This document shows positions 16,077 through 40,721 of a stretch of 46,397 bases of DNA, in pieces (positions within the stretch are counted from its first letter, which is position 1; every line of letters starts with the position of its first letter). The notes beneath the pieces were generated by a model. The model had not been told where the DNA came from, made no database searches, and worked only from the letters and a program-made list of their open reading frames with translations. The position numbers and the translations under genes are program-made. Source of the stretch: Thermodesulfobacteriota bacterium (GTDB taxonomy: Bacteria > Desulfobacterota > DSM-4660 > Desulfatiglandales > Desulfatiglandaceae); contig JANQDY010000104.1 in the NCBI GenBank assembly GCA_028278625.1, forward strand, positions 1-46,397, given 5' to 3'.

Positions 16077-16702
16077 GATCCCTGCCTGGTGTTCAATTCT
16101 ACGGTTTCAGGGAAAATGGCCCTGACGATCCAGATGAAGACACCCAAAACAAAAAATGCGCCCGGAGCGATGATCATGATGGTCCAGGGGACAAAGCCCT
16201 CCGGCATAATCGGGAATCCCAAAATCGATCCGAACCCCAACAATTCCCGTATGACCGCGATAATGGTCAGTACGAACGCGTAGCCCAATCCCACCGCCAA
16301 ACCGTCCAGGAACGACGGTACGACGGGATGGTTCTGGGCAAAGGCCTCACACCGTCCCATGATGATGCAATTGGTGATGATGAGACCCACATAAGGTCCC
16401 AGTGCGTCGCTGATATCCGGCAGATATGCTTTTATCACGATGTCCACAATGATCACGTAGGATGCGATGATCAGGGTTTGAACCATCATACGGATTCGGG
16501 TGGGAATATGGTTCCTCAAAAGGGAGACCGTCATGGAACTCATGGAAGCGGTGAAGATGAGGCCTGCGTTCATCACCAGCGTGTTTACCAGAAGATTCGT
16601 AACGGCCAATGTGGAGCATATCCCCAGGACCTGCCTGAGCACCGGATTGTCTTTCCAAAGACCCGCTATAAAAATTTCGCGACCTGACATTCTTTTCTGC
16701 AT
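16073..16702 (-). CDS. nqrD: Na+-NQR subunit D (RnfE/NqrD family)
   Basis: A 209-residue membrane protein with about six helices. Conserved pieces include WKDNPVLRQVLGICSTLAVT near the start (L-Cys in the first helix) and LIITNCIIMGRCEAFAQNHP (the second cysteine-bearing helix), both typical of NqrD/RnfE. These cysteines ligate the intramembrane iron centre together with those of subunit E. GAGGGTG lies 7 bases before the ATG at 16702; an alternative ATG is at 16690. It follows nqrC after 6 bases and overlaps nqrE. Confidence 0.92.
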   Translation of the reverse strand: MQKRMSGREIFIAGLWKDNPVLRQVLGICSTLAVTNLLVNTLVMNAGLIFTASMSSMTVSLLRNHIPTRIRMMVQTLIIASYVIIVDIVIKAYLPDISDALGPYVGLIITNCIIMGRCEAFAQNHPVVPSFLDGLAVGLGYAFVLTIIAVIRELLGFGSILGFPIMPEGFVPWTIMIIAPGAFFVLGVFIWIVRAIFPETVELNTRQGS

Positions 16703-16708
16703 ATGGAT

Positions 16709-24615: not shown

Positions 24616-26049
24616 TCATCCGGGCATCAGTATCGTTTTGACGGCCTGAAAAAAAGGGGATGGATAGACCCCTATCCACAGCAAAAGGATGGTGAGGCAG
24701 CCCAGGACGACCCAACCGCTCCATGGCACGGGCGCCGAAACCTTTGGCCCGGCTTCCTTCCCTTTGATTGGGGTGAACAGGATCACAATGACCCGCAGAT
24801 AGTAATAGAGGCCGATGAGGCTGCTTATAATCAGTGAAAGAACCAATCCCCAGAAGGCCTGGCTGACCCCGCCCGCCACCAGGATGAACTTTCCCATGAA
24901 CCCCGCCGTCAACGGAATTCCTGCCAGGGACAGCATTGAAAGCGTCAGGACCGCTGCCAGCCAGGGCCGTCGCCAATAGAGGCCGCGATAATCTTCCAAT
25001 GTTTCGGCCTCCTGTCCGGGGGCTGACAGGGCCATGAGAACCCCAAAGGCCGCGAGGATGGCGATAAAATAGGCTGTCAGATAGATGATGGCCGCCGTCA
25101 TGGCCCAGGGCTGGCAACTCAATACGGTCAAGAGCAGATACCCCATGTGCGAAATGGAGGAATAGCCCAGCAGGCGCTTTAGATTCTGCTGTTTCAACGC
25201 CAGGAGATTCCCCACGAACATGGAAATCACGGCCAGGAGGGCCATGGCCGTGAAGAGAGAGGGTGCATGGGGGATGTCCAGCATGATGGCCGCGCGCAGG
25301 AGGAAGGCGAACACGCCGCCCTTAGAGACGGTGGCGATGAAAGCCGTGGTGGGGGCCGGCGCACCCTGGTATACATCCGGGCTCCACAGATGGAAGGGGA
25401 CGATGGCCAGCTTGAAGCCGATCCCCGACAGGAGCAGTATCAGACCGGCAAGCCCCAGCATGCCGGCCTGGGGGGCGAATTGGTTCAGGTCGTTCAAACG
25501 CATAAGACCGGTATCCGTATAGATGAGGGCAATGCCAAAGGCCACCAAAGCGGTGGCCATGGCCCCCAGAACAAAATATTTGATTCCCGCTTCAAGGCCC
25601 CGGGTCCGGGCCGCCTCGTAGGCAATGAGGCCGTACAAAGAGACGCCCAGCAGCTCGAGACCCAAAAAGAACGTGGCAAGATGATGGCTGATGGTCAACA
25701 CCATGGCGCCCAGAATGGCCATCAGGAGCAAGAGATAATGTTCATCCCGCTGGGCCACGCCACGTTCCAGATAGATGTAGGAGAAGAGGGCCACAACAAA
25801 GCCCGCCACAAGGACCAACCCCATGAGGAAGAGACCGAAACCGTCCACCGTGAAGAGCGGGGTCACCGGGTGATCACCCAAACGGCCGGACAAAAACAGG
25901 GTCATAAAGGCCAGGCCCAGGCCGTCCAGGGTCAGTCCCGCTGTCAGGATGTGGGACCGGCGGACCGCAACCACCAGCAGGATGGCCACAATGGTTGCGG
26001 CCACGACCATCAGCGGAAGAATCGCCAATGCTTGGTCCATTGTCGCCAT
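24616..26049 (-). CDS. nuoN: NADH-quinone oxidoreductase subunit N
   Basis: A 477-residue antiporter-like membrane subunit, about 14 helices, close to E. coli NuoN (485). It begins MATMDQALAILPLMVV. The conserved proton-channel helices are present, with LLGVSLYGLIAYEAARTRGL (Glu/Lys-containing TM5-type helix), FKLAIVPFHLWSPDVYQGAP and KRLLGYSSISHMGYLL. It is one of three proton-pumping subunits of the membrane arm. GGGGGCGG is just before the ATG, whose first base overlaps the nuoM stop (TAATG); a long upstream in-frame extension to 26319 is rejected as overlap with nuoM. Confidence 0.93.
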   Translation of the reverse strand: MATMDQALAILPLMVVAATIVAILLVVAVRRSHILTAGLTLDGLGLAFMTLFLSGRLGDHPVTPLFTVDGFGLFLMGLVLVAGFVVALFSYIYLERGVAQRDEHYLLLLMAILGAMVLTISHHLATFFLGLELLGVSLYGLIAYEAARTRGLEAGIKYFVLGAMATALVAFGIALIYTDTGLMRLNDLNQFAPQAGMLGLAGLILLLSGIGFKLAIVPFHLWSPDVYQGAPAPTTAFIATVSKGGVFAFLLRAAIMLDIPHAPSLFTAMALLAVISMFVGNLLALKQQNLKRLLGYSSISHMGYLLLTVLSCQPWAMTAAIIYLTAYFIAILAAFGVLMALSAPGQEAETLEDYRGLYWRRPWLAAVLTLSMLSLAGIPLTAGFMGKFILVAGGVSQAFWGLVLSLIISSLIGLYYYLRVIVILFTPIKGKEAGPKVSAPVPWSGWVVLGCLTILLLWIGVYPSPFFQAVKTILMPG

Positions 26050-27614
26050 TACCGCCCCCACTCCAGGAAATCCGCCGCCTCGGTCCCGTGCCCGGTCAAC
26101 GGGGCTTTCCGGGGATATTTCCGAGGCGGGGCATCCGCTGTCATTGACTGAAGATGCGTCAACGATGGCTGCGCCGCGTCCAGCAGTGGCCGGGGATACA
26201 TTCCCAGACCCACCAGGAATGCGAGGATGACGGTCATGATGGCCAGCTCCCTTCCCCCATAGTCCGCAATACGCCACCCTTCCCGGTTCTCTCCCGTGAA
26301 AATGCGCTGGATCATCCACAGGGAATAGACAAGCGCCAGGATCAGCCCCACGGCGGCCACCATGGCCAGTCCCTGGTGTGCTTTATACACGCCCACCAGT
26401 ACCAGGAACTCACCCACGAAATTGATCAGGCCGGGCAGGCCCAGGGAGGCCAGGGCCAGGACCAATCCCACACGGCTCATTTTGGGGGCCAGGGTCCACA
26501 GACCGCCCATCCGGTTGAGATCCCGGGTGCCCAACCGGCGGTGAAGGTCTCCCACCAAAATGAAGAGCCCCCCGGTGCTGAGGCCGTGGGCCACCATGAT
26601 GACGACGGCCCCCTCCAGGGCCAGGTCATTCCAGGCAAAGACCCCCAGCAGAATAAATCCCATGTGGTTGACGCTGGAATAGGCGACCAGACGTTTTAGG
26701 TCCGACTGGGCAAAGGCCAGGATCGTTCCATACAGAATGCCGATGGCGCCCAGGGTCATGGCCACCGGCGAAAAGGTGGCGGCAGCCTGGGGGAAGAGGG
26801 GCACCAGGAAGCGCAGGAGACCGTATGCCCCTGCTTTGGACACGATACCGGCCAGAAGAACACTGGCGGCCGTGGGCGCCTCGGTGTAGGCATCCGGCAA
26901 CCAGGTATGGAGGGGGAAGGCGGGCAGCTTGACCGCGAAAGCCATGAAAAAGCCCCCCATCAGCCACGGGGCCCAAGCAGGAACCAGGGCAGCGGTCCCC
27001 AGGAGGTGCTGATATTCAAAGGTGTACACGCCGGTGGCGCGACCGTGAGAAAAAAAGAGACCCAGGATGGCAACCAGCATGAGAAGACCGCCGGCCTGGG
27101 TGAAAAGAAAGAATTTGAGGGCGGCCCGGGACCGGCCTTCATGACCCCAGATGATCATTAGGAACAAGAGGGGCACCAGCATGATTTCCCAGAAGCAATA
27201 AAAAAGAAGCAGATCCATGGACAAAAAGAGGCCGGTCACTGCTGTCACCACCAGCAGCAGATTGAAGTGGAAGAAGCCCGTCCGATCCTGGATCCGCTTC
27301 CAGGAGGTGGCCACCGCCAGAAAACCAAGCAATCCTGTGAGCGCCAAAAGAAGGAGGCTGATGCCGTCAAGGGCCAGATGAAAGCGGGCCCCGATCCGGG
27401 GGATCCAGGCATGGTCGAAGGTGAGCAGCCACACCGGATCAGCGGACAGACCAAAGGCGCCCCTGTGAACGACCCAAAGGGTCAGCACTGCCAAAAAATA
27501 GGTTCCAAGGGAAGCCAGGGAGATCCACCGGCACCATGCGGGACGGGAAAAAGACACCAGCCAGGCAATAAGCCCCCCCAGCAGGGGAAGGAGCAGCAAT
27601 CCGTTCAGTATCAT
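26049..27614 (-). CDS. nuoM: NADH-quinone oxidoreductase subunit M
   Basis: A 521-residue polytopic membrane subunit, near the E. coli length (509). It contains FYCFWEIMLVPLLFLMIIWG, with the conserved TM5 glutamate, FFMAFAVKLPAFPLHTWLPD followed by AYTEAPTAASVLLAGIVSK, and DLKRLVAYSSVNHMGFILLG with the broken-helix lysine region. It forms an antiporter-like proton channel in complex I. The ATG at 27614 overlaps the nuoL stop as ATGA; the 20-codon extension to 27674 is inside nuoL and is rejected. Confidence 0.95.
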   Translation of the reverse strand: MILNGLLLLPLLGGLIAWLVSFSRPAWCRWISLASLGTYFLAVLTLWVVHRGAFGLSADPVWLLTFDHAWIPRIGARFHLALDGISLLLLALTGLLGFLAVATSWKRIQDRTGFFHFNLLLVVTAVTGLFLSMDLLLFYCFWEIMLVPLLFLMIIWGHEGRSRAALKFFLFTQAGGLLMLVAILGLFFSHGRATGVYTFEYQHLLGTAALVPAWAPWLMGGFFMAFAVKLPAFPLHTWLPDAYTEAPTAASVLLAGIVSKAGAYGLLRFLVPLFPQAAATFSPVAMTLGAIGILYGTILAFAQSDLKRLVAYSSVNHMGFILLGVFAWNDLALEGAVVIMVAHGLSTGGLFILVGDLHRRLGTRDLNRMGGLWTLAPKMSRVGLVLALASLGLPGLINFVGEFLVLVGVYKAHQGLAMVAAVGLILALVYSLWMIQRIFTGENREGWRIADYGGRELAIMTVILAFLVGLGMYPRPLLDAAQPSLTHLQSMTADAPPRKYPRKAPLTGHGTEAADFLEWGR

Positions 27615-29524
27615 AGGACGATCACCCCCGTGAGTACCAGTACAACCCCTGCCGCAACGGCCAAGGCGTACCATCGCAACTGGCCCGTCTGGGTCGCTCT
27701 GAGCAAAGAGGATGCTCCCACATGGGCCCGGCCCAACAACGTGGGTCCAAGGTCCACCACATCGTTCTTATCGGCGCGGGTCAACCACAGGAAGGGTTTG
27801 ATGAACAGCTCATTGTCGAGCCAGTCAAACCCCCATCCCCGGAAACAGAGCCGGTGAAAAAATGCCACCACGGGGATCCGGATCAACCGTTTGAGCGCCT
27901 CACGCCATTGCATGACCATGAGATATGCCAGCCCCAGGCCGGACAAGGCCGCAAGTGCTGAAACCATGGCCATGATCCCTTCACCCACACCCCTGGAAAT
28001 GCGCTCCACCGGCGGCACCACCTGGTGCAGGAAGTCCGAGAGGGGGTGAAACCCGCCCATCCATCCGGGAAGACCCAAGAGGCCCCCCGCGACCGACAAC
28101 AGGGCAAGGATGACCAGCGGGATTCCCATGCATATGCTCAGCCGGGGAATGGGGGAGTGCTTTCGTACCAGGGGCTGGGGCGGACCGAAGAAGGTGAGAA
28201 AGACCATGCGGAAAGTGTAGAGACCGGTCAGGATCGCACCCAAAAGTGCCGCGGCCCACAACCAGGGCCCGCCCTGGGTGGAAGACCACACATCCCATAT
28301 GATCGTGTCCTTGCTGTAGAAACCGGCACTGATGAGGGGGAGGGCCGCCAGTGCATTGGCTCCCAAAAGGAAGGTCCAGAAAGTGAGGGGTAACTTCTTA
28401 CGAAGCCCACCCATCTTGAACATGTCGTGCTCCTGCTCCAGGCGAAGGATGATGACGCCGGCCCCCAAAAAGAGCAACGCCTTGAAAAAGGCGTGGATCA
28501 TGAAGTGGAAGACGGCCGCGCTCCAGGCGCCCACCCCCAGGGCCAGGAACATGTACCCGATCTGGCTGATGGTCGAATAGGCCAGGACGCGCTTGATATC
28601 CCGTTGGGTGACGCCGCTGAAACCGGCAAGCACCAGGGTCAGTGCCCCCACCACCGCCACCACCAGCATGACCGAGGGGGCCAGCAGATAGAGGGCGTGG
28701 GTCCGTATGATGAGGTATACGCCGGCCGTCACCATGGTGGCGGCGTGGATCAAGGCGCTCACCGGCGTGGGGCCGGCCATGGCGTCGGGAAGCCAGATCT
28801 GTAACGGCAGTTGCGCCGACTTGCCCACGGCGCCCCCCAAGAGGAGGAGGGCCGCCAGCACGGCCAGGGATGAACCCATCGGCCACTGCTCGGTTGCCCG
28901 GGCCATCAGGGTCTGAATGTGCAGGGTTCCCAGACTGTCGAACAGTAGGAAGAGGCCCAACAACAAGGCCGTGTCACCGATGCGGGTGACGATGAAGGAC
29001 TTGCGCGCGGCCCGGTCGTTTTTGGGGTCCTGGAACCAGAAGCCGATCAACAGATAACTGCACAGACCGACCCCTTCCCACCCCAGGTAGAGGAGCACCA
29101 GATTGTCCGCCAGCACCAGAACCAGCATCATTCCCACAAAGAGGTTCATGTAGGAGAAAAAGCGGGTGTAGTTCCAGTCGTTTTCATTCCCCATGAATTC
29201 CGATGAATAGAGGTGGATCAATGCGCCCACGAAGGTGATGATCAGGACCCAGATCAACGAGAGCGCATCCAGATGAAAGGCGATATGCACCGACAGATCC
29301 GCCACCTGAATCCAGGACCAGATGGTCTGAACAAAGATATGGCCGGGCGGCGGGGATGTGGTAAAGGCCATGGCGATCAAAATGGCCATGACCGCCGAAA
29401 GGGACACGGATCCAACGCCTATGGCGGCCGCCAGCTTGCGCGGGGGGTGATGGCTGCTCATGAAAGCCAGCACACCGGCCCCCGCCAGGGGGATCAGGGG
29501 AACGAGAAAAAGAAGGTCAAACAT
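27611..29524 (-). CDS. nuoL: NADH-quinone oxidoreductase subunit L
   Basis: A 637-residue membrane subunit, slightly longer than the E. coli 613. Conserved blocks: LYLGWEGVGLCSYLLIGFWF (TM5 glutamate), SAQLPLQIWLPDAMAGPTPV, SALIHAATMVTAGVYLI and DIKRVLAYSTISQIGYMFLA. NuoL carries the distal proton channel and the long lateral helix along the membrane arm at its C-terminus. It starts with MFDLLFLVPLIPLAG three bases after the nuoK stop. Confidence 0.95.
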   Translation of the reverse strand: MFDLLFLVPLIPLAGAGVLAFMSSHHPPRKLAAAIGVGSVSLSAVMAILIAMAFTTSPPPGHIFVQTIWSWIQVADLSVHIAFHLDALSLIWVLIITFVGALIHLYSSEFMGNENDWNYTRFFSYMNLFVGMMLVLVLADNLVLLYLGWEGVGLCSYLLIGFWFQDPKNDRAARKSFIVTRIGDTALLLGLFLLFDSLGTLHIQTLMARATEQWPMGSSLAVLAALLLLGGAVGKSAQLPLQIWLPDAMAGPTPVSALIHAATMVTAGVYLIIRTHALYLLAPSVMLVVAVVGALTLVLAGFSGVTQRDIKRVLAYSTISQIGYMFLALGVGAWSAAVFHFMIHAFFKALLFLGAGVIILRLEQEHDMFKMGGLRKKLPLTFWTFLLGANALAALPLISAGFYSKDTIIWDVWSSTQGGPWLWAAALLGAILTGLYTFRMVFLTFFGPPQPLVRKHSPIPRLSICMGIPLVILALLSVAGGLLGLPGWMGGFHPLSDFLHQVVPPVERISRGVGEGIMAMVSALAALSGLGLAYLMVMQWREALKRLIRIPVVAFFHRLCFRGWGFDWLDNELFIKPFLWLTRADKNDVVDLGPTLLGRAHVGASSLLRATQTGQLRWYALAVAAGVVLVLTGVIVL

Positions 29525-29527: not shown

Positions 29528-29836
29528 CTAACCCTTGAGGGCGCCTGCCGCGCTTGAGTAAAGCGTTTTGAAACGGGTCCGGAAGCAGAGGGCCAGGGCC
29601 AGCCCGACGGCCAGCTCCGCGGCTGCCGTGGTGACCACAAAGATATACATCACCTGTCCGTCCGCCTGCCCCCATCGGGCCCCGCCCACGATAAATGCCA
29701 GACCGGCGGCGTTGAGCATGATCTCCAGGGAAATGAGGGTGAACAGCACATTCCGCCGCACCAGCAGCCCCAGCATCCCAAGAGTGAAGAGGATGGCTGC
29801 CAGCAAAATGCCATGTGTTACGGGTATGGTTGCCAT
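29528..29836 (-). CDS. nuoK: NADH-quinone oxidoreductase subunit K
   Basis: A 102-residue, three-helix membrane subunit, the normal size. LVRRNVLFTLISLEIMLNAA contains the conserved membrane glutamate in the second helix, and VMYIFVVTTAAAELAVGLAL contains the one in the third. These lie on the proton path between the quinone site and the antiporter subunits. It lies between nuoJ and nuoL with gaps of 9 and 3 bases. Confidence 0.95.
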   Translation of the reverse strand: MATIPVTHGILLAAILFTLGMLGLLVRRNVLFTLISLEIMLNAAGLAFIVGGARWGQADGQVMYIFVVTTAAAELAVGLALALCFRTRFKTLYSSAAGALKG

Positions 29837-29845: not shown

Positions 29846-30352
29846 CTATGAATCCTTGTTCGTGGAACTGTGGCGGCCCAGATGATAGGCGCCCACCAGT
29901 CCGGCCAACAAGAGCATGGATGCCAGTTCCACCCCCAGGGCGTAGGGACCGAAAAGGGCAAATCCCACCCGGGCCGGGGAAACCGCCGTCCCCGGAACAG
30001 GGGAGGGTTCCCCGGCGGAAAGAACGTAGATGAAATCCACCATAAGAAGCAGGGTCAGGACAGCCGGGCCGAGCCACGACCATGGGCGGGGGGAGCGCGT
30101 TGCCCCTCCCTTCTTCCCGGTTCTCGGGATCAGGGTCATGATGGCGAAGAGGAGCATGACCATCATGGCCCCCGCGTAGGTGATCACCTGAAGTGCCGCG
30201 GCAAAGGGAGCACCCAGGACCAGGAATGCCACTGCAACAGCCAGCAGCGAAACCACCAGGTACAGGAGGCCATGGATCACTTCCCTGCGGGTGATGGCCA
30301 AAACCGTTGCCAGTATGGCAATTGCGCCGCTCACGTAAAATGCCGTGTTCAT
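29846..30352 (-). CDS. nuoJ: NADH-quinone oxidoreductase subunit J
   Basis: A 168-residue membrane subunit with five predicted helices, close to E. coli NuoJ (184). It includes FYVSGAIAILATVLAITRRE and LVVSLLAVAVAFLVLGAPFA, then AALQVITYAGAMMVMLLFAI, the conserved TM3 segment with the YAGA motif that is involved in the active/coupling transition. A GAGGG site is about 10 bases before the ATG. It follows nuoI after 17 bases. Confidence 0.94.
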   Translation of the reverse strand: MNTAFYVSGAIAILATVLAITRREVIHGLLYLVVSLLAVAVAFLVLGAPFAAALQVITYAGAMMVMLLFAIMTLIPRTGKKGGATRSPRPWSWLGPAVLTLLLMVDFIYVLSAGEPSPVPGTAVSPARVGFALFGPYALGVELASMLLLAGLVGAYHLGRHSSTNKDS

Positions 30353-30369: not shown

Positions 30370-30885
30370 CTAAGGCATGAGACCCCGCACATCCACCGGG
30401 GTTTCTTCATTTTCAGCCTGACCCTTCCCCTTACCTCGAATGGCAAGGCCCGATACCCTGTAGAAATTGTAGTCCGGGTGTTTGCCAGGGCCCCTGATCA
30501 GCAGGTCCTCCTTTTCATAGACCAGGTCATGACGGTGGTATTCGCCCATTTCGAAATCCTGGGTCAATTGAATGGCCAGGGTGGGACATGCCTCCTCGCA
30601 GAAACCGCAAAAGATGCACCGGGCGAAGTTGATGCGGAAGCTGATGGCCTGATGCCGGCCCTCTTTCACCACCCCTCCCTCAATGGCGATACAATCGGTG
30701 GGGCAGGCCGCCGAGCAGAGGTAACAGGCCACGCAACGTTCTTCTCCGTCCGGATCCCGGGTCAACACGATGCGCCCGCGAAACCGCGGTGGCGTGTACG
30801 GCCGTTTCTCCGGATAGGAGACCGTCTCACGCGGACGAAAGGCGTGGGTGAAAATCAACAAAATGGAGCGCAGAATCGAAAACAC
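30370..30885 (-). CDS. nuoI: NADH-quinone oxidoreductase subunit I
   Basis: A 171-residue protein with two ferredoxin-type [4Fe-4S] motifs, [15 protein letters not shown] and [15 protein letters not shown], which hold clusters N6a and N6b. They pass electrons from NuoG toward NuoB. GGAGG lies 5 bases before a GTG at 30885, which is preferred over the TTG at 30888. It ends in a charged tail. The gene sits between nuoH and nuoJ, the same order as in E. coli. Confidence 0.94.
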
Positions 30886-30897
30886 CAAGACCTCCCA

Positions 30898-31854
30898 TCA
30901 CCCGCGGGCCGCCAGCAAAATACCCGCGGTAACCAGCAGATTGATCAGGGACAGGGGCAACAACACCTTCCACCCCAGGGCCATCATCTGATCGTACCGG
31001 GGCCGCGGCAGGCTGGCCCGGATCAGGATGAAGATGGCGATGAACGCGAAGGTTTTGACCATAAACCAGACCACGGGCGGCAGCAAAGGGCCGTGCCATC
31101 CCCCAAAATAAAGGGTGACCATCAAGGCCGATATCAGGGTGATCCCCATGTATTCACCCAGGAAAAACATGCCGAATTTCATTCCCGAATATTCCGTATG
31201 ATACCCGGCCACCAGCTCGCTGTCCGCCTCGGTCAGATCGAAGGGGGTGCGATGGGTTTCCGCCAGCCCGGCGATGAAGAAGACCACGAACCCGAGCAAC
31301 TGGGGAACCACAAACCACATGTTGCGCTGGGCCGCCACGATCTCCCCCAGATTGAAGGACCCGGCCAGGATCACCACCCCCATGAGCGACAGTCCCATGA
31401 ACACTTCGTAACTCAAGATTTGGGCCGCGGCCCGCACGCCTCCCAACAGGGCATACTTGTTGTTGGAAGACCAGCCGGCCAGCACCATGCTGTAGGCACC
31501 CAGGGATGACATCCCCAGGAAGAAGAGGAGCCCGATGTTGAGGTCCGCCACCGTAAGGCCGGGTCCCACGCAAATCACCCCGAATGAGAGCAGCACCGGT
31601 CCCACCGCCAGAGCCGGGGCCAGCAGGAAGAGCGGTTTGTCGGCAAAGGGCGGGATCCAGTCCTCCTTGGTAAAAATTTTGATCATGTCCGCCATGACCT
31701 GGAGCAGTCCGAACGGGCCTGCACGGTTCGGTCCCAGGCGATCCTGCCAAAGTGCCAGGAGCCGACGCTCCAATAGGATATTCGCGGCGGCAACCAGAAG
31801 AGGCCCCAACAGCATGCCCAGAATGACCAGGATGGTTATGAGTGTGTCATTCAC
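30898..31854 (-). CDS. nuoH: NADH-quinone oxidoreductase subunit H
   Basis: A 318-residue, eight-helix membrane subunit (E. coli 325). It holds the quinone-access and coupling site where the membrane arm meets the peripheral arm. Signatures: [20 protein letters not shown], with the conserved RxGPNR loop, and [20 protein letters not shown], with the acidic loop (E, D, E) that faces the quinone site. It overlaps nuoG by 4 bases (ATGA). Confidence 0.95.
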
Positions 31855-34571
31855 GGTCTTCCCTTCCTATCCCTTATCCCTGTCCGGGCCCCTGCTGCAT
31901 TCAGCCGGACGGTCCTGGGAGCCATATATTCCAACAGCCCCGCGGGAAATCCGGCCACTCCCGATGGGAGGGAGGGCAGGGCCCTGATGGGGATGGCCGT
32001 CATACGGTCCACCAGGACCTCTTCACCCTCCGAAAGCCCCAGTTTTTCCATGTCTTCTTGGTTCAGGGCCACGTAAGGGGTTGGTGCCAGCCCGGCAATC
32101 CCAGGGCTTAAACGGCTCAGAGGCTCGGACCCGAACATGTGGAAAATGGGCACCAGAAGCCATTCTTCCGCTTGCCCGCAAAAGGACGGCGGCACTTCCT
32201 TGAAATAGGTCCATTTGCCAGAGGCCTGCGGTTCCATCAACCGCTCACCCGGATCCCCACCCTTGAGGGGGCCACCCACCTCCTGCTGAAATTTGTTGAG
32301 GGCCTGGACCGAGTTCCAGCCCGGCGCCCAATAGCGTGGAATCAAGGGCGACGGCGGCGGCCCGTGCAATCCCTCCATGGAAAAGGAGAAGGGTGCATCC
32401 GGGTCCTCCGGCGGCTTCGGGACATTGACGTCCAGGTCTGTGTGCATGGCGGTCCGTCCGCTGTAGCGGGGCGACTGTCGCGGGACCTTCATGCCTTTAA
32501 GCTCGCTTTCCGTCTTCATGATCCCCGAGAGCACCGGCGCAAAAACAGGTACCTCTCGGGCCAGGGAATGCATGAGGGCATTCACGTTGCCCGACACTTC
32601 ATTGCCGTTCACGTCAGTCATGGGGGCCAGCCATCCATGGGCCGGCAGTACATCTCCTGTTGGTTCAAAGACCTGGAAAAAGCGCTGGGCCCGCCCCTCG
32701 TAATTGACCAGGGTGCCGGTACACTCGGCAAAGGTGGCTGTCGGCAAAAGCAGATCAGCCTTTCGGGTGGTCCCGGTCTCAAGGGATTCCAGGACGACCA
32801 CCTGACGGCCCGCCAGCAATTCGTCCGCGGACTCAGGCGCCATGCGCTGGTACAGATCGTTTTCAAGGATGATGACCCCCTCGACGGCCCCTTGCAGCAC
32901 CTTTTCAAAAGCCGCATCCAGGTCCATTCCCCCCATCATGGAGACACCCATGGTATTGGCTTCAGGCGATAGAAAGGCCAGTCCGGCCACCCGTTCCACC
33001 TTACACAGGGAAAACGCCACGTTGGCCGCGGCCCGCACCAGGGCCGAATTCCTTAGGGAGATGCCGCTGACCACCAGGGGCCGTTGGGCCGCTTTCAGGT
33101 CCCCGGCAATGGCTTCCGCCAGAACCAGCACTTCTTCCGAAATGTCCGTGACAACGGGAGCCTTGGGATCAAGGGCATGGGCCACGGCAAAGCCCAGCCG
33201 GGCCAGGTCATCGGGGGCCCCGCGATAGGTGAGGGTGGCCACGTCGTCCAGACGGGTTTCATGAGGGGTGGCGATGAACAGGGGTCCCTTTTCATCCTGA
33301 ATGGCCGTCCGGACCCCTGCCGCCTGCCAGAGGGGGATGTGCAAGGGATCCAGTTCCTTGAGCGGCTCCTGCCGGACCGATTGCCGCAGGGCCAGGGCCG
33401 CGCGGGGCATCACCTGGGTCACGTCTTCTCCAAGGATCAGCACCGCATCGGATCGCTCCATGTCCCAAATGGAGGGGGATCTGGCCGGGCCTTTTTTAAA
33501 GATCTCCAGGATCAACTTATTAAGCCCGGCTTCTCCGGCCGACATGCCGGTGCAGAACCGCTCTTTGCCCACCAGTCTTCGTAGGGCATGGTTGGCTTCA
33601 AGGGAAGCCCGGGGAGATCCGATGCCAATGGTTTTCTCCTGCCCGGATAAGATTGAACGGAAGGCATCAACGGCTTTCCCGGGCGAAAGGGTTTCAAGGG
33701 GTGCGTTTTTCCGCGCACGGTGCCGCGCTTTCCTCGTCCGCTGTTCGCTGTTGACGAATTCGTAACCGAACCTCCCCCGGTCACAGAGAAAATAGCCGTT
33801 TACACCCCGGTGGTAGCGGTTCCTTATGCGGCGCAGGGTTCCGTATCGCTCACCGGGAATGGTATTACAACCGGCGCCGCACAGGACACAGAGGGAAGGG
33901 GCCGTCTGAAGATCCCACTTGCGTGCGTAATGACCGTGAAAGGTCTTGTCCGTAAACACGCCGGTGGGGCATATTTCCACCAGGTTGCCGCTGAATTCGT
34001 TTTCCAGGGGACCTTCTTCGAAACGGCCGAAAAAGACGTGGTCATGGGCCCCGAACACATTCAAATCACGGCCTCCCGCGTAATCCCTGTAGAAGCGAAC
34101 GCAGCGATAGCAGCTGATGCAGCGATTCATCTCATGTTTCAACAGGGGTCCCAGGTCCTGATTGTCATGGGTCCGTTTGGCAAACCGGTGATCCCGGTGC
34201 ACGTGCCCGCTCATGATTGTCATGTCCTGCAAATGACACTCGCCCCCTTCGTCGCATACCGGACAATCGTGGGGATGGTTCGCCATGAGCCATTCAATAT
34301 TGGCGGCCCGGAACGCCTTGGCCTCGGGATCATCAACTGAGATGCGCGTCCCTTCCTTGGCCGGGGTCATGCAGGCCATGACGATACGGCCCCGGGTGTC
34401 GTTTTCATCCTTGAATTGCCGGATGGCACACTGCCGGCAGGCCCCCGCGGACCCTAAAGCCGGGTGCCAGCAGAAATAGGGGAGATCGAACCCCAGGCCC
34501 AAACAGGCTTCCAGGAGATTTCGGCCCTCCGGAACCTGGTACGGTCTCCCTTCGATGAAAATGGTCGCCAT
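31851..34571 (-). CDS. nuoG: NADH-quinone oxidoreductase subunit G
   Basis: A 906-residue protein, almost the E. coli length (908). The N-terminal 2Fe-2S domain has [18 protein letters not shown]. Then follow the His-Cys ligated cluster (the GECHLQDM and [12 protein letters not shown] regions) and [20 protein letters not shown] at about 227-235 provides the extra N7-type cluster region, with a further cysteine in [10 protein letters not shown]. The rest is a molybdopterin-oxidoreductase-like domain without the cofactor. It is the largest peripheral-arm subunit. The start overlaps the nuoF stop (TGATG). Confidence 0.95.
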
Positions 34572-35992
34572 CAGACTGCCCCTCCATTCCCCTGCCAGGG
34601 GCAGCGTTTTTGGCGGATATGCATCAGGAAATCATCTTCAAAATATTTGAGTGCGCTCTGAAGCGGCTCCATGGCTCCCGGAGCCAGGGCACAGAAGGTG
34701 CTGCCCGGCCCGCCGATCAGACGGGCATGGTTGCGCAGGCGATCCATGTCTTCAAACCTTCCCGAGCCCGCCTCAATGGCACCGAGTACCTTGGAAGTCC
34801 ACGGCAACCCTTCCCGGCAGGGGGTGCACCAGCCGCATGATTCCCGGGCGAAAAAACCCATGACGTTTTTCACCATCCCCACCGGACAGGTCCGGTCATC
34901 CAGGACGGTCATGGTGCCACAACCCATGCGGCTGCCGAGGGCGTTTACGGATTTCACATCCATGGGCACATCCAGGTGCTCGGCAAGGAGGAATTCCGTG
35001 GAGGCGCCACCGGGTAAAAAAGCCCGCAGCCGGTACCCCTCCTCCATGCCGCCGGCGTGTTCTTCGATGATTTCCCGGGCCCTGGTGCCCATGGGGAGTT
35101 CCCACCATCCGGGCCGCCTGACCCTGCCACTGACGCCGTAGATCTTGGTGCCCCCCTCGTCGGTGTAACTGAGCCCCTTGTACCAGTCCGACCCGTTGCG
35201 GAGAATGTGCGGCACATTGCACAGGGACTCCACATTGTTGACATCGGTGGGCTTTCCCCACAAGCCGATGGCTGCCGTGTGGGGCGGCTTGGCCCTTGGG
35301 TTGGCGCGCCGGCCTTCCAGGGAATTGAGCAATGCGCTGGCCTCGCCGCAGATGTACCTGCCGGCGCTGGTATGGAGATGAACCTCCACAGAGAGATCCG
35401 TTCCCAGGATGTGCGGACCCAGGTAGCCTGCCTCACGTGCCTCATGGATGGCCCTTTCAATGCGCCGGGCCGCCTTTTTGTAGGCCCAGCGCAGGAAGAT
35501 ATAGGCCGTGCCCGCGCCGATGGCGTAAGCCGCGATGATGATCCCCTCGATCAACTGGTGGGGGTTCCCCTCCATGAGCACCCGATCCTTGAAGACCCCG
35601 GGCTCCATTTCGTCGGCATTGGCCACCACATAGGCCCGGGAATCGGCATGCTCACCCTTGGGCATGAAACTCCATTTGATTCCGGTGGTGAATCCGGCGG
35701 CGGCGTGGCCCCACAGATCCGGTTCCTCAATCATCATGACCATCTCGTGGGGAAAGATGTGCCGCTTGTGAAGATCCTCGTCCGGCACGAAGCTCCACTT
35801 CCTGCCGGTGGAAAAGCCTGCGCCGCCCCTTCCCCCCAGGGTAGCGTCCGAAACCACCTTGATGACCTGGTGCGGCGCCATCTTTAGGGCTCCGCGGAGC
35901 CCCTGATATCCTCCCACCGCCTCGTATTCTTGAAGGCTCAGGGCCTGGCCGTCACTGCGCATATGTTGGGTCAGGGGACGTTCCCTCGCCAT
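34571..35992 (-). CDS. nuoF: NADH-quinone oxidoreductase subunit F, unusual (internal duplication; GEASAL)
   Basis: A 473-residue protein; E. coli NuoF is 445. It binds NAD(P)H, FMN and cluster N3. Usual features are present: GGRGGAGFSTGRKWSF (FMN loop, 53-68), ANADEMEPGVFKDR with the conserved second Glu, and ESCGWCTPCREG plus FCALAPGA for N3. Two features stand out. First, a partial second copy of the FMN loop, AAGFTTGIKWSFMPK, lies 41 residues after the first, at about 98-112, without the GRGG. Second, GEETAL reads GEASAL, putting Ala218 at the position of E. coli Glu183. Codons were checked (GGC GAG GCC AGC). The rest reads as a sound NuoF, so it is probably functional, perhaps with NADPH. 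Confidence 0.93.
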   Translation of the reverse strand: MARERPLTQHMRSDGQALSLQEYEAVGGYQGLRGALKMAPHQVIKVVSDATLGGRGGAGFSTGRKWSFVPDEDLHKRHIFPHEMVMMIEEPDLWGHAAAGFTTGIKWSFMPKGEHADSRAYVVANADEMEPGVFKDRVLMEGNPHQLIEGIIIAAYAIGAGTAYIFLRWAYKKAARRIERAIHEAREAGYLGPHILGTDLSVEVHLHTSAGRYICGEASALLNSLEGRRANPRAKPPHTAAIGLWGKPTDVNNVESLCNVPHILRNGSDWYKGLSYTDEGGTKIYGVSGRVRRPGWWELPMGTRAREIIEEHAGGMEEGYRLRAFLPGGASTEFLLAEHLDVPMDVKSVNALGSRMGCGTMTVLDDRTCPVGMVKNVMGFFARESCGWCTPCREGLPWTSKVLGAIEAGSGRFEDMDRLRNHARLIGGPGSTFCALAPGAMEPLQSALKYFEDDFLMHIRQKRCPWQGNGGAV

Positions 35993-35995
35993 TGT

Positions 35996-36475
35996 TTATG
36001 TCCCTCCCCGGACATAGGGCCTGATAATGGCTTCCATGTCCTCGGGCCGGATGCGGGTGTAGAGGTCGTCGTCGATCATCATGGCGGGCGACTGTTCGCA
36101 GACGCCCAGGCAGCTCACCGGCAGCCAGGTAAACCGCCCATCCGCAGTGGTTTCACCTGGGACGATGCCCAGGAGCCGGGACAAATGCCCTTCCAGTCCT
36201 GTTTGGCCCATGATCCAGCAGGTGACGCCGTCGCACAGGCGGATGACATGGTCACCCACCGGCCTGCGAAGTATTTGGCTGTAAAAGGTGGCCAGGCTGT
36301 CCAGTTCGGCCGGCGTCATTTCAAGGAGGGCCGCCACCGCCTTCAGATCTTCATCCGACACCCAGTTCTTGGGTTCCTGAACGATTTTCAGCGCTTCGAT
36401 CGCCACGGCCCGGCGGGTGGGATAGACGCTCATCAGCGCTTGGATCTTTGATTGTTCATGGGAACTTATGGCCAT
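35996..36475 (-). CDS. nuoE: NADH-quinone oxidoreductase subunit E
   Basis: A 159-residue thioredoxin-fold protein (E. coli 166) that holds the [2Fe-2S] cluster N1a. The four cysteines are in CDGVTCWIMG (C-x4-C) and CLGVCEQSPAMMID (C-x3-C). It forms the NADH-input module with NuoF and NuoG. The ATG at 36475 is preceded by GGAGGGG; the in-frame GTG at 36490 overlaps the nuoCD stop and is less likely. It ends 3 bases before nuoF. Confidence 0.94.
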   Translation of the reverse strand: MAISSHEQSKIQALMSVYPTRRAVAIEALKIVQEPKNWVSDEDLKAVAALLEMTPAELDSLATFYSQILRRPVGDHVIRLCDGVTCWIMGQTGLEGHLSRLLGIVPGETTADGRFTWLPVSCLGVCEQSPAMMIDDDLYTRIRPEDMEAIIRPYVRGGT

Positions 36476-36486
36476 AAACCCCTCCG

Positions 36487-38232
36487 TCACCGGTCAATAT
36501 CGGCCAAAACGTAATCCACGGCCCCCAGAATGGCCATGAAATCGGCCACCATGGCGCCGCGGGTGCTGATCAAGGGCACCATCTGAAGATGGGGGAAAGA
36601 GGGGGCCCGGATCCGGCAGCGGTACGCCGATCCCGCGCCGTCGCTGATAAGGTAGTAGCCGTTGTTCCCCTTGGTCGCCTCGATGCCCTGGTGGGCCTCG
36701 CCTGCCGGGATCACCGGCCCCCAGGCAACCTTTACGAAATGGTTGATGAGGGTTTCGATGTCATGGAGCGTGCGCTCCTTTGCGGGGGGAACGGCCAGCG
36801 GATGTTCCGCCTTGTAACCGCCGTCCGGCATGTGTTTTAGGCACTGTTCCACGATGCGCAGGCTCTGTCGCATCTCTTCCATGCGCACCAGGGTCCTGTC
36901 GTGGCAGTCACCGTGAACGGCGATGGGGATGTCGAAATCCAACTGGTCATAGCCGGAATAGGGGCGTTTTTTTCGAAAATCCCATTCCAGGCCGGTGGCG
37001 CGCAATCCCGCACCGGTCACCCCCCATTCCATGGCCTCCTTGGTTGTGTAGGCCCCCACCCCTTGTGTGCGGGCCCTGAAAATGCGGTTCTGGATGACCA
37101 CCCGATCATATTCCCGAAGGCGCTTCGGCAGGTACGCCAGGAAATCGCGCACCAGCGGGTCCCAACCCTTTGGCAGGTCCATGGCCACGCCGCCGATGCG
37201 GAAGAAGCTGGGATGCATGCGCCCGCCGGTGATGGCCTCCACGATATCGAAGATACGTTCCCGGTCGTTGAAGGTAAAAAAAACCGGCGACATGGCCCCG
37301 ATGTCAGAGGCAAAGGTGCCGAGCCAGACCAGGTGGCTGGCCAGGCGGAAGAGCTCGGCCAACAGGATGCGGATCACCTGGGCGCGGGGGGGCGCTTCGA
37401 TGCCTGCCAGTTTTTCCACGGCCAGCACATAGGCGAAGTTGTTCATGACACCGCCCAGGTAGTCGATGCGGTCGGTATAAGGGATATAGGTGTGCCAGGT
37501 CTGGCGTTCGGCCATCTTTTCGGCGCCACGGTGGTGGAAGCCGATACCGGGCACCACCTTCCTGATCTCTTCCCCATCCAGTTGCAGCACAAATCGGATA
37601 ACGCCGTGGGTGCCGGTGTGATGGGGACCCAGGTTCAGAATCAGCTGATCCCCGGTGGTATCCGCGGCGGCCATTCCCCACTGGGCCGGATCGAATTGGA
37701 GCGCCTTTTCGTCTTGGATGATCTCCTCCTGGGATATGCGCGCGGGTCCCTTTTCCGTTGCCCGGGCCGGGTATTCCTTCCTCAGGGGATGCCCTTCCCA
37801 GGTGTCCGGCAGCAGGATGCGCCTCAAGTTGGGATGACCGTCAAAGGTGATGCCGAAGAGGTCCCAGACCTCCCGTTCGTACCAGTCGGCGGCAGGCCAA
37901 AGCCCCGTGATACTGGATAGGGAGGGATTTGGGTCCGTAAGCGGCACCTTAATGCGGATATCGCTGTTCCCCGCAAAGGACAGAAGGTGATAAACCACCG
38001 TGAAAGCGCTCTCCGGTTGACCCTGACGCTGTCGTCGCTCCCGCTCATCAATGGCGGTCAAGTCGTAGAGCATCTCATAGGGATGGGAGGCTTTTGTTTT
38101 AAGATACCGCAATACTCCCAAGAGTTCGTCCCGCCCTACCCAAATGGTGGGAGTTTTGTCCACGGTTGTCTGTTCAGCCAGGATATGCGGTCCAAGGCGG
38201 TTTTTCAGCTCCTGGATGATCCCTTTACCCAT
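36487..38232 (-). CDS. nuoCD: NADH-quinone oxidoreductase, fused subunits C and D
   Basis: A 581-residue C-D fusion (E. coli 596). The NuoC part (about 1-180) has [20 protein letters not shown] and [17 protein letters not shown]. The NuoD part has [40 protein letters not shown], and [13 protein letters not shown]; its C-terminus lines the quinone-reduction site. The single fused gene is the enterobacterial arrangement; many bacteria keep nuoC and nuoD apart. It starts with ATG 38232, five bases after the nuoB stop. Confidence 0.95.
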
Positions 38233-38237
38233 TCGAT

Positions 38238-38870
38238 TCAGACCTCATCCGGGGAACGCAGTGTTGTGGTCCCCTGTCGTTCCATGCGCTTTAGGTCCCG
38301 GCGGGCAGGCATCTTGGTTTGCACCACCCTTTGGGGTCCCAACACCCAACTAAGCGGCCTCTTTTCGTTGCCCACCCGGTCCTGAAGCAGGGTCAGCCCC
38401 TCCATGAAGGCCATGGGGCTGGGAGGACAACCGGGGACGTAGACGTCCACGGGCAGGAATTGATCGACCCCTTGAACAACACTGTAGATGTCGAACATAC
38501 CGCCCGAGTTGGCGCACGACCCCATGGAGATGACCCAGCGGGGCGCCATCATCTGCTCGTAAAGGCGTTTGACCACCGGGACCATCTTGACGAACATGGT
38601 CCCGGCGATGATGATCATGTCCGCTTCCCTGGGGGAGGGGCGTACCACCTCGGCGCCAAAGCGGGCAATGTCATACCGGCTGGTAATGGCGGTCATCATC
38701 TCCACGAAACAGCAGGAAAGGCCGAACCCAAAGGGCCACAAAGAGTGCTTGCGGGACCAGGCCACCAGGTCTTGCAGTCGGGTCAGTATAACGGAGGATT
38801 TCACCGCCTGTTCCAGGGTGCCGTCGCCCAACCGGGCAGTGGGGTCCGGTGGGTTACCTGAGGGATTCAT
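38238..38870 (-). CDS. nuoB: NADH-quinone oxidoreductase subunit B
   Basis: A 210-residue protein (E. coli 220) holding the terminal cluster N2 next to the quinone site. The tandem cysteines are in [10 protein letters not shown], the third in [11 protein letters not shown], and the fourth in VPGCPPSP. The start overlaps the nuoA stop as ATGA (38867-38870). Confidence 0.95.
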
Positions 38871-39301
38871 GAGCCATGGTCCTCTCTTCCGGTCATGCTC
38901 CGGCCGGTTTCCGGCGCTGGGGACTGTCCCGGACGAAAGGCTTTAGGTCCCCAATTGAGTGCCCCGGTTCGCCAGAAGTAGACAAGGGCTGCCAGGAGGA
39001 TGCCGATAAAGACCACCACGTGCCAGTAGCCGGACCACCCAAGGTCACGAAATGCCGCGGCCCAGGCAAAGACGTACACGGCCTCCAGATCGAACAGGAC
39101 AAAGGCCACCGCCACCAGATAGTACTTTACGGGGATGGGTCCTTTGGCCCGACCGGTGGGCAGGATCCCTGATTCATAGGGTTCCCCGGTGGTCCTCTCC
39201 CAATGGCGCTCCCCCAATAGGGATGAAAGACCCAGGATTACGGCCACCAGGAGCACCACCAGGATGAAAAAGATCGCCAGGGGCCACATGGCGGCGGTCA
39301 T
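38867..39301 (-). CDS. nuoA: NADH-quinone oxidoreductase subunit A
   Basis: A 144-residue membrane subunit with three helices (E. coli 147). [20 protein letters not shown] resembles the NuoA loop that normally contains CG (YECG); here the Cys is replaced by Ser, as in some relatives. [18 protein letters not shown] has the conserved Asp-Glu region of the second helix. GGGAAGGGA is near the ATG at 39301, which overlaps the gnd stop as ATGA; the 95-codon extension to 39586 is gnd shadow and is rejected. Confidence 0.94.
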
Positions 39302-40323
39302 GATGATTCCCTTCCCGGTTTTTCGTGATGGCCCCCGAACCCGTATCGCATGGCCGACATCACCTTGTCCGCGAATTCGTCCTGGCCCCTGGAACTGAAG
39401 CGGGCAAATAGGGCCGCGGTAATGATGGGGGCCGGGGTGGCCTCGTCCACCGCCGCCAGTACTGTCCAGCGCCCCTCGCCGGAATCGGAGACCCGGCCCT
39501 CGAATTGGGACAGCTGAGGGTCTTGCTTCAGGGCCGCCGCGGTCAAGTCCAGGAGCCAGGAACCCACCACGCTGCCTCGCCGCCACACCTCGGCGATGTC
39601 AGGAAGATCGAAACGGTATTGGTAGAATTCAGGATGGCGCAGGGGTGTGGTTTCGGCATCCAGGTCATGGCGCTTCATGCCCACGTCGGCTTTGTTGAGG
39701 ATATTCAAACCTTCGGCGATGGCGCCCATCATGCCGTACTCGATGCCATTGTGCACCATTTTGACGAAATGGCCTGCCCCGTGGGGGCCGCAGTGCAGAT
39801 ACCCTTTTTCCGCGGGAGTGGGGTCGCCTCTTCGGCCAGGGGTGCGCGGGGCCGCATCCATGCCCGGGGAGAGAGCTGAAAAGAGGGGATCGAGATGCGC
39901 CACCACCTCTTTCTCGCCGCCGATCATCAGACAGTATCCCCGCTCAAGCCCCCACACGCCACCGCTCACGCCCACATCCACGTAATGAATGCCCGCGGGC
40001 TGCAACTCCTTGGCCCGGCGGATGTCGTCGTGGTAGTAGGAATTCCCCCCCTCCACCACCACGTCTCCGGAATCCAGCAATGATTTGAGGTCCTCCAGGA
40101 CCCTATCCACGGCACCTGCCGGCAACATCAGCCAAACAATCCGCGGTTTGGGCAACATCTTGACGAATGCCTTGAGATCAGTGGATCCCCTGGCACCCTG
40201 GTCCACCAGTTTCTGTACGGATTGCGCATGTCGAGCATGGGCCACACACCGGTGCCCTGCCTTCATCCACCGGATTCCCATATTGGCCCCCATGCGCCCC
40301 AAACCGATTAGTCCGATTTCCAT
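39298..40323 (-). CDS. gnd: 6-phosphogluconate dehydrogenase (decarboxylating), short type
   Basis: A 341-residue protein of the short 6-phosphogluconate dehydrogenase class (about 300-340). It oxidises and decarboxylates 6-phosphogluconate to ribulose 5-phosphate. Motifs: GLGRMGANMG (nucleotide site), GGNSYYHDDIRRA, and GHFVKMVHNGIEYGMM with the catalytic Lys-x2-His-Asn. At the end of the second strand the sequence is VAHARH. The acidic residue used by NAD-specific forms (xYDxN) is Ala30, followed by Arg31, which lines up with the Arg of the NRT loop in NADP-specific forms. This leans toward NADP. AAAGGAG lies 8 bases before the ATG. The stop overlaps nuoA, making this the first gene of the complex I operon. 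Confidence 0.88.
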   Translation of the reverse strand: MEIGLIGLGRMGANMGIRWMKAGHRCVAHARHAQSVQKLVDQGARGSTDLKAFVKMLPKPRIVWLMLPAGAVDRVLEDLKSLLDSGDVVVEGGNSYYHDDIRRAKELQPAGIHYVDVGVSGGVWGLERGYCLMIGGEKEVVAHLDPLFSALSPGMDAAPRTPGRRGDPTPAEKGYLHCGPHGAGHFVKMVHNGIEYGMMGAIAEGLNILNKADVGMKRHDLDAETTPLRHPEFYQYRFDLPDIAEVWRRGSVVGSWLLDLTAAALKQDPQLSQFEGRVSDSGEGRWTVLAAVDEATPAPIITAALFARFSSRGQDEFADKVMSAMRYGFGGHHEKPGRESS

Positions 40324-40423
40324 AAGCGGATGCTCCTTTCTTTGTGGATAACCTTCGCTCTTGGCATTAAGCCCTGTTTCCCGTGCGGCTTGACAGAATG
40401 CGCCGGGCCGTAGCCTTAAGAGG

Positions 40424-40453
40424 ACGATACCCGAGGTTTTTTCTCCAAGTCAA
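40424..40453 (-). promoter_or_regulatory. Candidate promoter of the gnd-nuo operon
   Basis: On the minus strand TTGACT (40453-40448), an 18-base spacer and TATCGT (40429-40424). The expected start site near 40417 leaves a leader of about 95 bases to the gnd ATG at 40323. In the rest of 40324-40721 there is no recognised gene on either strand: the plus strand holds an in-frame open stretch from 40518 to the FmdE-fusion start (see that entry), and a 71-codon minus-strand frame at 40367-40582 looks like chance. Confidence 0.4.
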
Positions 40454-40721
40454 GTCCCAAAAGCGGTCATTCACCCTATTCGGTTTGTGGTGACCGATAA
40501 AATATTGGGCCAGAGGCTTGAAGATGTTTAGGGTTTCACAAATGACAAAATCTGAGAAGCTGGCCTTGAGCCTTGAAAGCAAAAAGGAACAAACGTCACT
40601 TTTCGATTCTCAGGAAATCGAAAGGTTGTCCAAAGATGTGGTTTCCTGCTACATTGATCCTTGCGTGTGCAAAGCATGTATGATTTGCGCAGAGAATTTT
40701 CAGATTACGAAGGAATGCAAT

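Follow-up and report, generated by a model that had tools for sequence, protein, structure and literature searches.

We put at even odds a broad proposal: some bacteria naturally possess a class of complex I that pumps protons as an NADPH:quinone oxidoreductase. The class would have emerged on three or more occasions, each time with the loss of one and the same Glu, would be linked at the genomic level to the oxidative pentose phosphate pathway, and would allow direct, energy-conserving respiration of sugar-phosphate NADPH without a transhydrogenase. The case starts from the window, by which we mean the whole 46,397-nucleotide stretch analyzed here (Thermodesulfobacteriota bacterium, GenBank assembly GCA_028278625.1, contig JANQDY010000104.1). 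Encoded in it is a full complex I of the proton-pumping kind, and the NuoF of that complex is rather probably retuned for NADPH, either in preference to NADH or alongside it; binding and turnover of NADPH, preference for it over NADH, and the accompanying physiology are predictions.

Textbooks present complex I as an NADH enzyme, and to our knowledge its NADPH version comes from mutants only; among the titles and abstracts listed by literature searches, none was recognized as describing a natural NADPH complex I or nuo genes adjoining pentose-phosphate genes, which is a weak negative. If the proposal is right, NADPH in the host bacteria would be an energy source besides a biosynthetic currency, and maps of redox balance would change. 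Nature would also be offering sequence sets for pocket changes that have been tried singly or in pairs in the engineering of NuoF-like diaphorases. NaphS2, the nearest named relative, makes the NADPH question testable in a named strain: of its two operons of the Ala form, the first has an intact nuoF, and the nuoF of the second reads in two frames in the assembly.

The nuo operon

A full set of subunits, NuoA to NuoN, is encoded together in the window, NuoI and NuoM being assigned through general domains and operon position:

39298..40323, (-) strand: gnd, short-form 6-phosphogluconate dehydrogenase, 341 aa, loop HARH, first gene of the operon
38867..39301, (-) strand: nuoA, its ATG sharing bases with the gnd TGA (ATGA)
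38238..38870, (-) strand: nuoB
36487..38232, (-) strand: nuoCD, fused
35996..36490, (-) strand: nuoE
34571..35992, (-) strand: nuoF, the subunit for NADH and FMN (473 aa), of the Ala form and carrying the insertion
31851..34571, (-) strand: nuoG, 906 aa
30898..31854, (-) strand: nuoH
30370..30888, (-) strand: nuoI, Fer4 domains only; top BLAST match of relatives' ORFs at the same operon position
29846..30352, (-) strand: nuoJ
29528..29836, (-) strand: nuoK
27611..29524, (-) strand: nuoL
26049..27674, (-) strand: nuoM, Proton_antipo_M domain and operon position
24616..26319, (-) strand: nuoN

Every subunit of the E. coli-type NDH-1 (NuoA to NuoN, with fused NuoCD) is present. NuoF is recognizable as a complex I subunit by its FMN loop GRGGAGF, intact in the first copy of a repeat (see below), and by Cys386, 389, 392, and 434, which we take to be the ligands of its 4Fe-4S cluster and which are unchanged in 13/13 members of the window clade; its model is 53% identical to E. 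coli chain 7awt_F over 415 aligned residues. Differences from E. coli NDH-1 are the Ala in place of Glu183, a His replacing a Phe, Arg64, a 41-residue tandem duplication following the Gly-rich loop, and gnd at the head of the operon.

Residue 218 and its partners in the NuoF pocket

The initial annotation had read GEASAL in NuoF and aligned its Ala218 with E. coli Glu183. Codon and alignment bear this out: the codon is GCC, and HMMER pairs the residue with 183 of 7awt_F and 185 of T. thermophilus 2fug_1, such that Ala218, Lys235, and His238 correspond to T. thermophilus Glu185, Lys202, and Phe205. Ala218 lacks the carboxylate that is also lost at Glu183 in engineered NADPH-oxidizing E. coli complex I, where Ala at this very position is reportedly effective for NADPH as well.

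Among the NuoF proteins listed, Ala is found at this position in 7/194 and Glu in the other 187; among genome loci, Ala is found in 1/80 and Glu in the other 79. Six of the seven listed Ala-form proteins, that of the window included, belong to the clade bearing the window's insertion, and the seventh (P0074) lies outside it. Judged by these sequences, the Ala218 pattern is more than chance, given the near-invariant Glu elsewhere. The same near-invariance argues against an ordinary NADH-oxidizing complex I in which loss of Glu is tolerated drift that the duplicated loop and the rest of the pocket changes offset, the neighbors being central-metabolism genes grouped for common expression. We consider that reading improbable.

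Three further pocket residues, passed over in the initial annotation, accompany Ala218 in 7/7 Ala-form and 0/6 Glu-form members of the window clade:

35339..35341, (-) strand: codon of Ala218, the counterpart of Glu183 in E. coli NuoF and of Glu185 in T. thermophilus
35801..35803, (-) strand: codon of Arg64, position from frame; Arg in all 7 Ala-form clade members, whereas the 6 with Glu have Ser, Lys, or Gln
35276..35281, (-) strand: codons of His238-Thr239, position from frame; Phe-Pro in the clade's 6 Glu-form members

Arg64, His238, and Thr239 are candidate ligands of the 2′-phosphate, present and covarying, in a pocket that the fold models leave at low confidence. Outside the clade, P0074 combines Ala218 with His64 and Ser239; Ser239 is unique to it among 187 aligned rows, the remaining 186 having Pro. 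His238 is also found in 16 of those 187 rows, every one of them a Glu form, and a Lys preceding Lys65 is seen in four Glu-form Desulfobacterota NuoF, so neither feature is diagnostic alone. In the Ala forms of type 2, alignment places His at 238 in 8/11; their apparent loss of Lys235 depends on the alignment, 8/11 having a Lys one position earlier.

On a tree of 44 NuoF built with the pocket columns masked, the Ala label needs three changes, and supported branches force three. The pocket changes within the window clade split off one branch, indicating a single event there. Three changes on the tree, with charge-fitting partners, are a further difficulty for the tolerated drift of an ordinary NADH enzyme.

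Precedents and a possible route for NADPH

Engineering of a NuoF homologue, R. capsulatus FdsB, offers a guide (PMC10671435). Glu259 of FdsB bonds the ribose 2′-OH; changing it to Gly, Gln, Arg, or Lys gained NADP+ activity, and changing it to Asp gained none. NADP+ activity also appeared when Lys276 was replaced by Ala, and again when Leu279 was replaced by Arg; combining changes (K276A/E259R, K276A/L279R) brought no gain, K276A/E259G was unexpressed, and the variants retained low NAD+ activity. Work cited in the same text found that E. coli complex I gained affinity for NADPH when the equivalent Glu became Gln or His. By matched spacing, FdsB 259 and 279 are NuoF 218 and 238; on this match, the positions of E259 and L279 are changed in the window clade, as is that of E259 in the type-2 Ala forms, with that of L279 in 8/11 of them.

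These likenesses have limits. The engineered E. coli Glu183 variants (Morina 2011, as cited in PMC10671435 and in the references of PMC6560083) concern the same residue with the same predicted effect, whereas the window NuoF is natural, has extra pocket changes, and is predicted from its sequence to use NADPH. FdsB is an engineered diaphorase subunit of a formate dehydrogenase, in which combined changes were without gain. Natural use of NADP(H) by a NuoF homologue is seen in HytB of C. autoethanogenum, which belongs to the NADP-specific electron-bifurcating hydrogenase HytA-E (PMC5861303); unlike the window complex, HytA-E is soluble and without a proton pump.

In the proposed mechanism, the Glu that bonds the ribose 2′-hydroxyl and would repel a 2′-phosphate is replaced by Ala, with Arg64, His238, and Thr239 perhaps holding the phosphate. 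Hydride from NADPH would pass to FMN and on through the Fe-S chain to quinone by the usual route. The oxidative pentose phosphate pathway, represented here by a 6-phosphogluconate dehydrogenase of the same operon, could thus supply NADPH for direct respiration, with energy conserved and no need for a transhydrogenase.

How exclusive NADPH use might be is a separate matter. We rate dual use and preference roughly equal in likelihood, since low NAD+ activity persisted in the FdsB variants and combined changes did no better. A complex with NADH and NADPH at near parity, linked to pentose-phosphate genes because both cofactors must be disposed of, overlaps with our preferred explanation and is somewhat unlikely as a separate account. 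Single changes at the homologous Glu that add NADP+ activity while NAD+ activity is kept (PMC10671435) speak for it, and the residual NAD+ activity is equally compatible with an ordinary NADH complex I. Both of these alternatives gain from genome content: a Glu-pattern search covering nine Ala-form genomes found no Glu-form match in eight, in which case NADH oxidation may fall to the Ala complex too. What counts against parity is that several coordinated changes occur in the natural forms, seemingly beyond the needs of tolerance.

Pentose-phosphate genes near nuo

Linkage to the pathway that would supply the NADPH was noticed first and counted afterwards. Pentose-phosphate genes lie near nuo in 7/12 Ala-form Desulfobacterota loci, against 0/12 Glu-form Desulfobacterota loci and 3/79 Glu-form loci from elsewhere. 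With kinship ignored, Fisher tests gave p = 1.3e-6 on an earlier count (7/12 Ala-form versus 2/91 Glu-form) and p = 0.0023 when the 7/12 were set against the 12 Glu-form Desulfobacterota loci only. In L014 and L015, pgl is matched only weakly, with a lax BLAST cut-off and not with strict ones; this match is included in the 3/79 and so scored against the hypothesis. A motif scan for pentose-phosphate genes served as a screen and was not the source of the counts.

The strength of the linkage varies between loci. In one genome, tkt-rpiB-tal-HAD-gnd-zwf-pgl plus rpe adjoin an Ala-form nuo; in NaphS2, pgl lies ~5 kb from nuoA beyond a cyo operon; and a transaldolase-like fragment in G133 falls below the NCBIfam cut-off. 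An ordinary NADH complex I would fit the 5/12 Ala-form loci that have no pentose-phosphate gene, but sits poorly with 7/12 versus 0/12.

A complex running in reverse, spending the proton gradient to reduce NADP+ for biosynthesis with the pentose-phosphate genes as an anabolic unit, is very improbable. Complex I is reversible in principle and NaphS2 is an anaerobic sulfate reducer, both of which fit; however, the linked zwf and gnd make NADPH themselves, and the NaphS2 nuo genes come after a cyo quinol oxidase operon, which suits forward electron flow.

The idea that the cell may feed pentose-phosphate NADPH directly into complex I, raised in the initial annotation, draws indirect support from the pocket co-changes, the repeated loss of Glu on the tree, and a pathway linkage counted with controls; the specific pairing of gnd with nuoA did not hold as a conserved trait.

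The leading gnd gene

Within the window, the pairing is as first described: the TGA of gnd overlaps the ATG of nuoA, and the translation confirms Ala30-Arg31 (residues 29-32, HARH). Neighborhood counts led us to reject gnd-nuoA as a conserved pair. No match to the window gnd was found at 80 NuoF loci; conversely, 57/395 genomes had a short-gnd match, and none of the 30 loci examined had nuoA, nuoB, or nuoCD within ~1.5 kb. NaphS2 gave only distant matches; its top hit, at 35%, is a gnd of the classical long form on a different contig.

The gene itself, with NAD_binding_2 and 6PGD domains in ~340 aa, is a short-form decarboxylating 6-phosphogluconate dehydrogenase. Asp stands at the Ala30 site in the four best-matching solved chains, by alignment, and its loss suggests a bearing on NADP use: an NADP-dependent enzyme would be expected to lack Asp where the second strand ends and to have Arg beside it, and Ala30-Arg31 stand there. 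Ala30 is less special than had been supposed, occurring in 36/120 listed homologues with the query counted. Reading the cofactor from family models was dropped: TIGR00872 (425 bits, cut-off 297) and NF007161 (454 bits, cut-off 271) both score above cut-off and are named for opposite cofactors.

The tandem duplication and structure models

In NuoF the Gly-rich loop is also duplicated in tandem, over 41 residues, a feature likewise absent from the initial annotation; the duplicated loop directly follows the Arg64-bearing loop in sequence:

35783..35875, (-) strand: repeat copy 1, residues 40-70, helix and Gly-rich loop, GRGGAGF kept
35660..35752, (-) strand: repeat copy 2, residues 81-111, degenerate loop GHAAAGF

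The copies are identical at 14/31 residues. In the first AlphaFold model of NuoF, pLDDT falls below 50 at residues 61-65, 70-117, 216-220, and 227-250; supplying 13 sequences that bear the insertion gave a poorer second model (mean pLDDT 59.5). Structure comparison gave no information on the insertion and returned NuoF-type chains, mostly from complex I with some from hydrogenase and Nfn. Chain 9mqx_B is among the listed solved-chain matches of NuoF.

NuoF residue 218 and a possible adaptation to NADPH

The complex I encoded in the window is fairly likely to be adapted to NADPH, with or without preference over NADH, a predicted activity to which changes in NuoF point. Its operon and the divergent neighbour of that operon are as follows.

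40323 to 24616, minus strand: gnd, nuoA, nuoB, nuoCD and nuoE to nuoN, in gene order
40518 to 42356: FmdE-like protein fused to a molybdopterin-binding domain

By their coordinates, adjacent genes from gnd through nuoH share a few bases or have at most 5 between them, and the overlap of the gnd stop with nuoA claimed in the initial annotation is confirmed as a shared ATGA. No terminator-like site was found in the gnd/nuoA region (38800-40600). At NuoF residue 218 the codon GCC (35341-35339) gives Ala, and HMMER aligns this residue with Glu183 of E. coli (7awt_F), as that annotation had also held, and with Glu185 of T. thermophilus (2fug_1). When the NuoF of relatives was aligned at this position, as it had proposed, the residue was Glu in 187 and Ala in 7 of the 194 proteins listed (best 120 of each search, each scoring ~8,000 candidates), six of the Ala proteins lying within the window clade and one, P0074, outside; at the best 80 of 512 genome loci found, it was Glu in 79 and Ala only in NaphS2, the nearest named relative.

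In FdsB, a NuoF homologue of R. capsulatus, Glu259 bonds the ribose 2'-hydroxyl; NADP+ activity appeared when Gly, Gln, Arg or Lys took its place but not with Asp, and it also appeared on changing Lys276 to Ala or Leu279 to Arg; low NAD+ activity remained in the variants, and combined changes brought no gain (PMC10671435). The same study records that the diaphorase of E. coli complex I has a raised NADPH affinity when the equivalent Glu is Gln or His (PMC10671435). FdsB 259, 276 and 279 (spacing +17, +20) correspond to window 218, 235 and 238 and to T. thermophilus 185, 202 and 205, matched by spacing rather than by an FdsB alignment. Because changes at these spacing-matched positions conferred NADP+ activity, the change in NuoF points to NADPH. 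In E. coli complex I, Ala in place of Glu183 reportedly works as well. The literature searched yielded no assay of a complex I of the Ala form.

A probable tandem duplication and co-changing residues

The window NuoF exceeds the usual length by ~41 residues. HMMER places query residues 40-78 and, again, 81 onward on one part of T. thermophilus Nqo1 that begins at residue 50. Residues 40-70 and 81-111, taken as the two copies, agree at 14 of 31 positions and score 91 against each other with BLOSUM62, compared with a maximum of 23 among 20,000 shuffles; the insertion is therefore best read as an old tandem duplication of the helix and Gly-rich loop. GRGGAGF is retained in the first copy and lost from the second. 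Eleven of the 194 listed proteins, the window's included, carry the insertion, as do NaphS2 and one Anaerolineae genome among the best 80 of 512 loci. At a third locus (L006, 9042-10439), an Anaerolineales NuoF carries another insertion there, comparable in length but different, in which a stretch resembles a diverged second Gly-rich loop; this protein groups outside the window clade on trees.

Among 13 members of the insertion clade (7 Ala, 6 Glu), 17 columns separate the groups, with no residue common to both and at most two letters in the Ala group. These are column 64 (Arg in the Ala group vs Ser, Lys, Gln), 238 (His vs Phe) and 239 (Thr vs Pro), together with 218, 240 and 241, four inside the insertion (74, 88, 97, 102), two immediately after it (112, 114) and five elsewhere (194, 279, 296, 426, 461). 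P0074, which is without the insertion, combines Ala218 with His64 and Ser239, the latter found in it alone among 187 rows outside the clade (Pro in the other 186). His238 by itself is not diagnostic of the Ala form, because 16 of those 187 rows carry it and every one is a Glu form. Structure predictions gave the pocket and insertion only low confidence.

Recurrence of the Ala form

Across 395 Desulfobacterota genomes, a DNA pattern for GRYxCGEA gave 12 matches, spread over 11 of the genomes (reversed control, 0). NaphS2 accounts for two, one in its window-type operon and one in a second operon; the other ten lie elsewhere. Those ten and the second NaphS2 NuoF make up type 2, mostly accompanied by an apparently fused NuoBCD, judged by long ORFs and the lack of a nuoB match apart from them. 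A tree was built from 44 NuoF after masking of the pocket columns. Three changes are needed to explain the Ala label on it, and its supported branches make three unavoidable: the window clade (98/93), P0074 and type 2 (11 rows, 100/96) each adjoin Glu forms. The Ala form may thus have been gained three times, which is the simplest reading and not proof because of the midpoint root and hand-chosen sample.

When residues are counted back from the conserved GLW, 8 of the 11 type 2 proteins have His at 238; in these the preceding stretch is one residue shorter and Lys235 has no aligned partner, and the other three have Pro at 235. Loss of Lys235 in type 2 is not certain, since the same number (8/11) have Lys one place earlier. 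Nine of the 11 have Arg or Lys immediately ahead of Lys65; four Glu-form Desulfobacterota NuoF have Lys there as well. In NaphS2 operon 2 (L098, 5344-9106), the nuoBCD-like gene and nuoF each lie in two frames, from sequencing error or decay. UbiA-like genes adjoin Ala-form nuo at four loci (L143, L146, L147, L149), three of which also have a cytochrome-b5-like gene (named by eye).

Pentose-phosphate genes near Ala-form nuo

The adjacency of gnd and nuoA, whose persistence in relatives the initial annotation had made a check on its idea, is not kept: it occurs in the window only, at none of the best 80 of 512 NuoF loci and none of 30 fetched short-gnd loci. The cofactor of the window gnd may be either NADP+ or NAD+. 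Other sugar-phosphate genes do lie near Ala-form nuo. NaphS2 has a glucose-6-phosphate isomerase gene (PRK00179, 860 bits) between nuoA (named by eye) and the nuoB-like gene of operon 2, and a 6-phosphogluconolactonase gene (TIGR01198, 227 bits) upstream of the cyo operon and nuo of operon 1, in the opposite direction. Beyond the nuo genes, genome G393 has tkt (tested separately), rpiB, tal, a HAD-like gene, long gnd, zwf, pgl and later rpe (rpiB, gnd and pgl by BLAST only; zwf to rpe >10 kb from the Ala site). G359 and G139, sisters on the tree, have tkt, a HAD-like gene, NADP-type gnd and zwf (by BLAST) facing away from nuo; G355 has tkt, rpiB and tal; and G133 has, ahead of nuoA, a transaldolase-like fragment that the contig end truncates and that scores under the family cut-off.

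With a single BLAST recipe over ~10 kb around the site where the contig allows, such genes were nearby at 7 of 12 Ala-form loci, including two short contigs (10.1 and 8.5 kb) that can only hide genes. The counts were 0 of 12 same-phylum Glu-form loci (GEE pattern, 317 genomes; 6 full complex I, 2 with nuoE, F and G only, 4 other NuoF-like enzymes) and 3 of the 79 Glu-form members of the best-80 set of genome loci, mainly Bacteroidota by title and some on short contigs. With kinship ignored, Fisher tests gave 1.3e-6 on an earlier count (7/12 vs 2/91), 0.0023 against the 12 same-phylum loci alone and 0.010 against the 8 complex-I-like ones. The linkage idea came from NaphS2, and some reference proteins were taken from Ala-form loci; among the ten loci fetched after the idea arose, 5 were linked, vs 0 of 12 Glu.

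The Glu pattern search covered 9 Ala-form genomes; 8 had no Glu-form NuoF match and the ninth had a non-complex-I match only, so the Ala complex may serve NADH too.

The HAD-like gene (~205 codons, by eye) adjoins gnd in three Ala-form genomes (L144 1988-2602, L145 16980-17597, L178 4391-5014), lying between gnd and tkt in two. In genome G315 (L182 7786-10471), the Desulfobacterota gene that best matches the window gnd (71%, HARH loop) has pgl and rpiA after it on its contig, and an Ala-form nuo operon lies on another. NaphS2 leads an anaerobic life; a cytochrome o quinol oxidase operon directly upstream of its Ala-form nuo (L001, 1688-6534; cyoA, B and C by family model, small and CyoE-like genes by eye) is unexpected for a sulfate reducer.

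An Rnf/Nqr-like cluster

Elsewhere in the window (8879-18297, minus strand), RnfD/NqrB-, NqrC-, NqrD/RnfE- and RnfA/NqrE-like subunits and an NqrF-like flavin subunit, three of the five below every NCBIfam cut-off of theirs, form what looks like a mixed Rnf/Nqr system. They are followed by a GltD-like Fe-S flavoprotein, a pyridine-nucleotide oxidoreductase and a two-gene 2-oxoacid:ferredoxin oxidoreductase.
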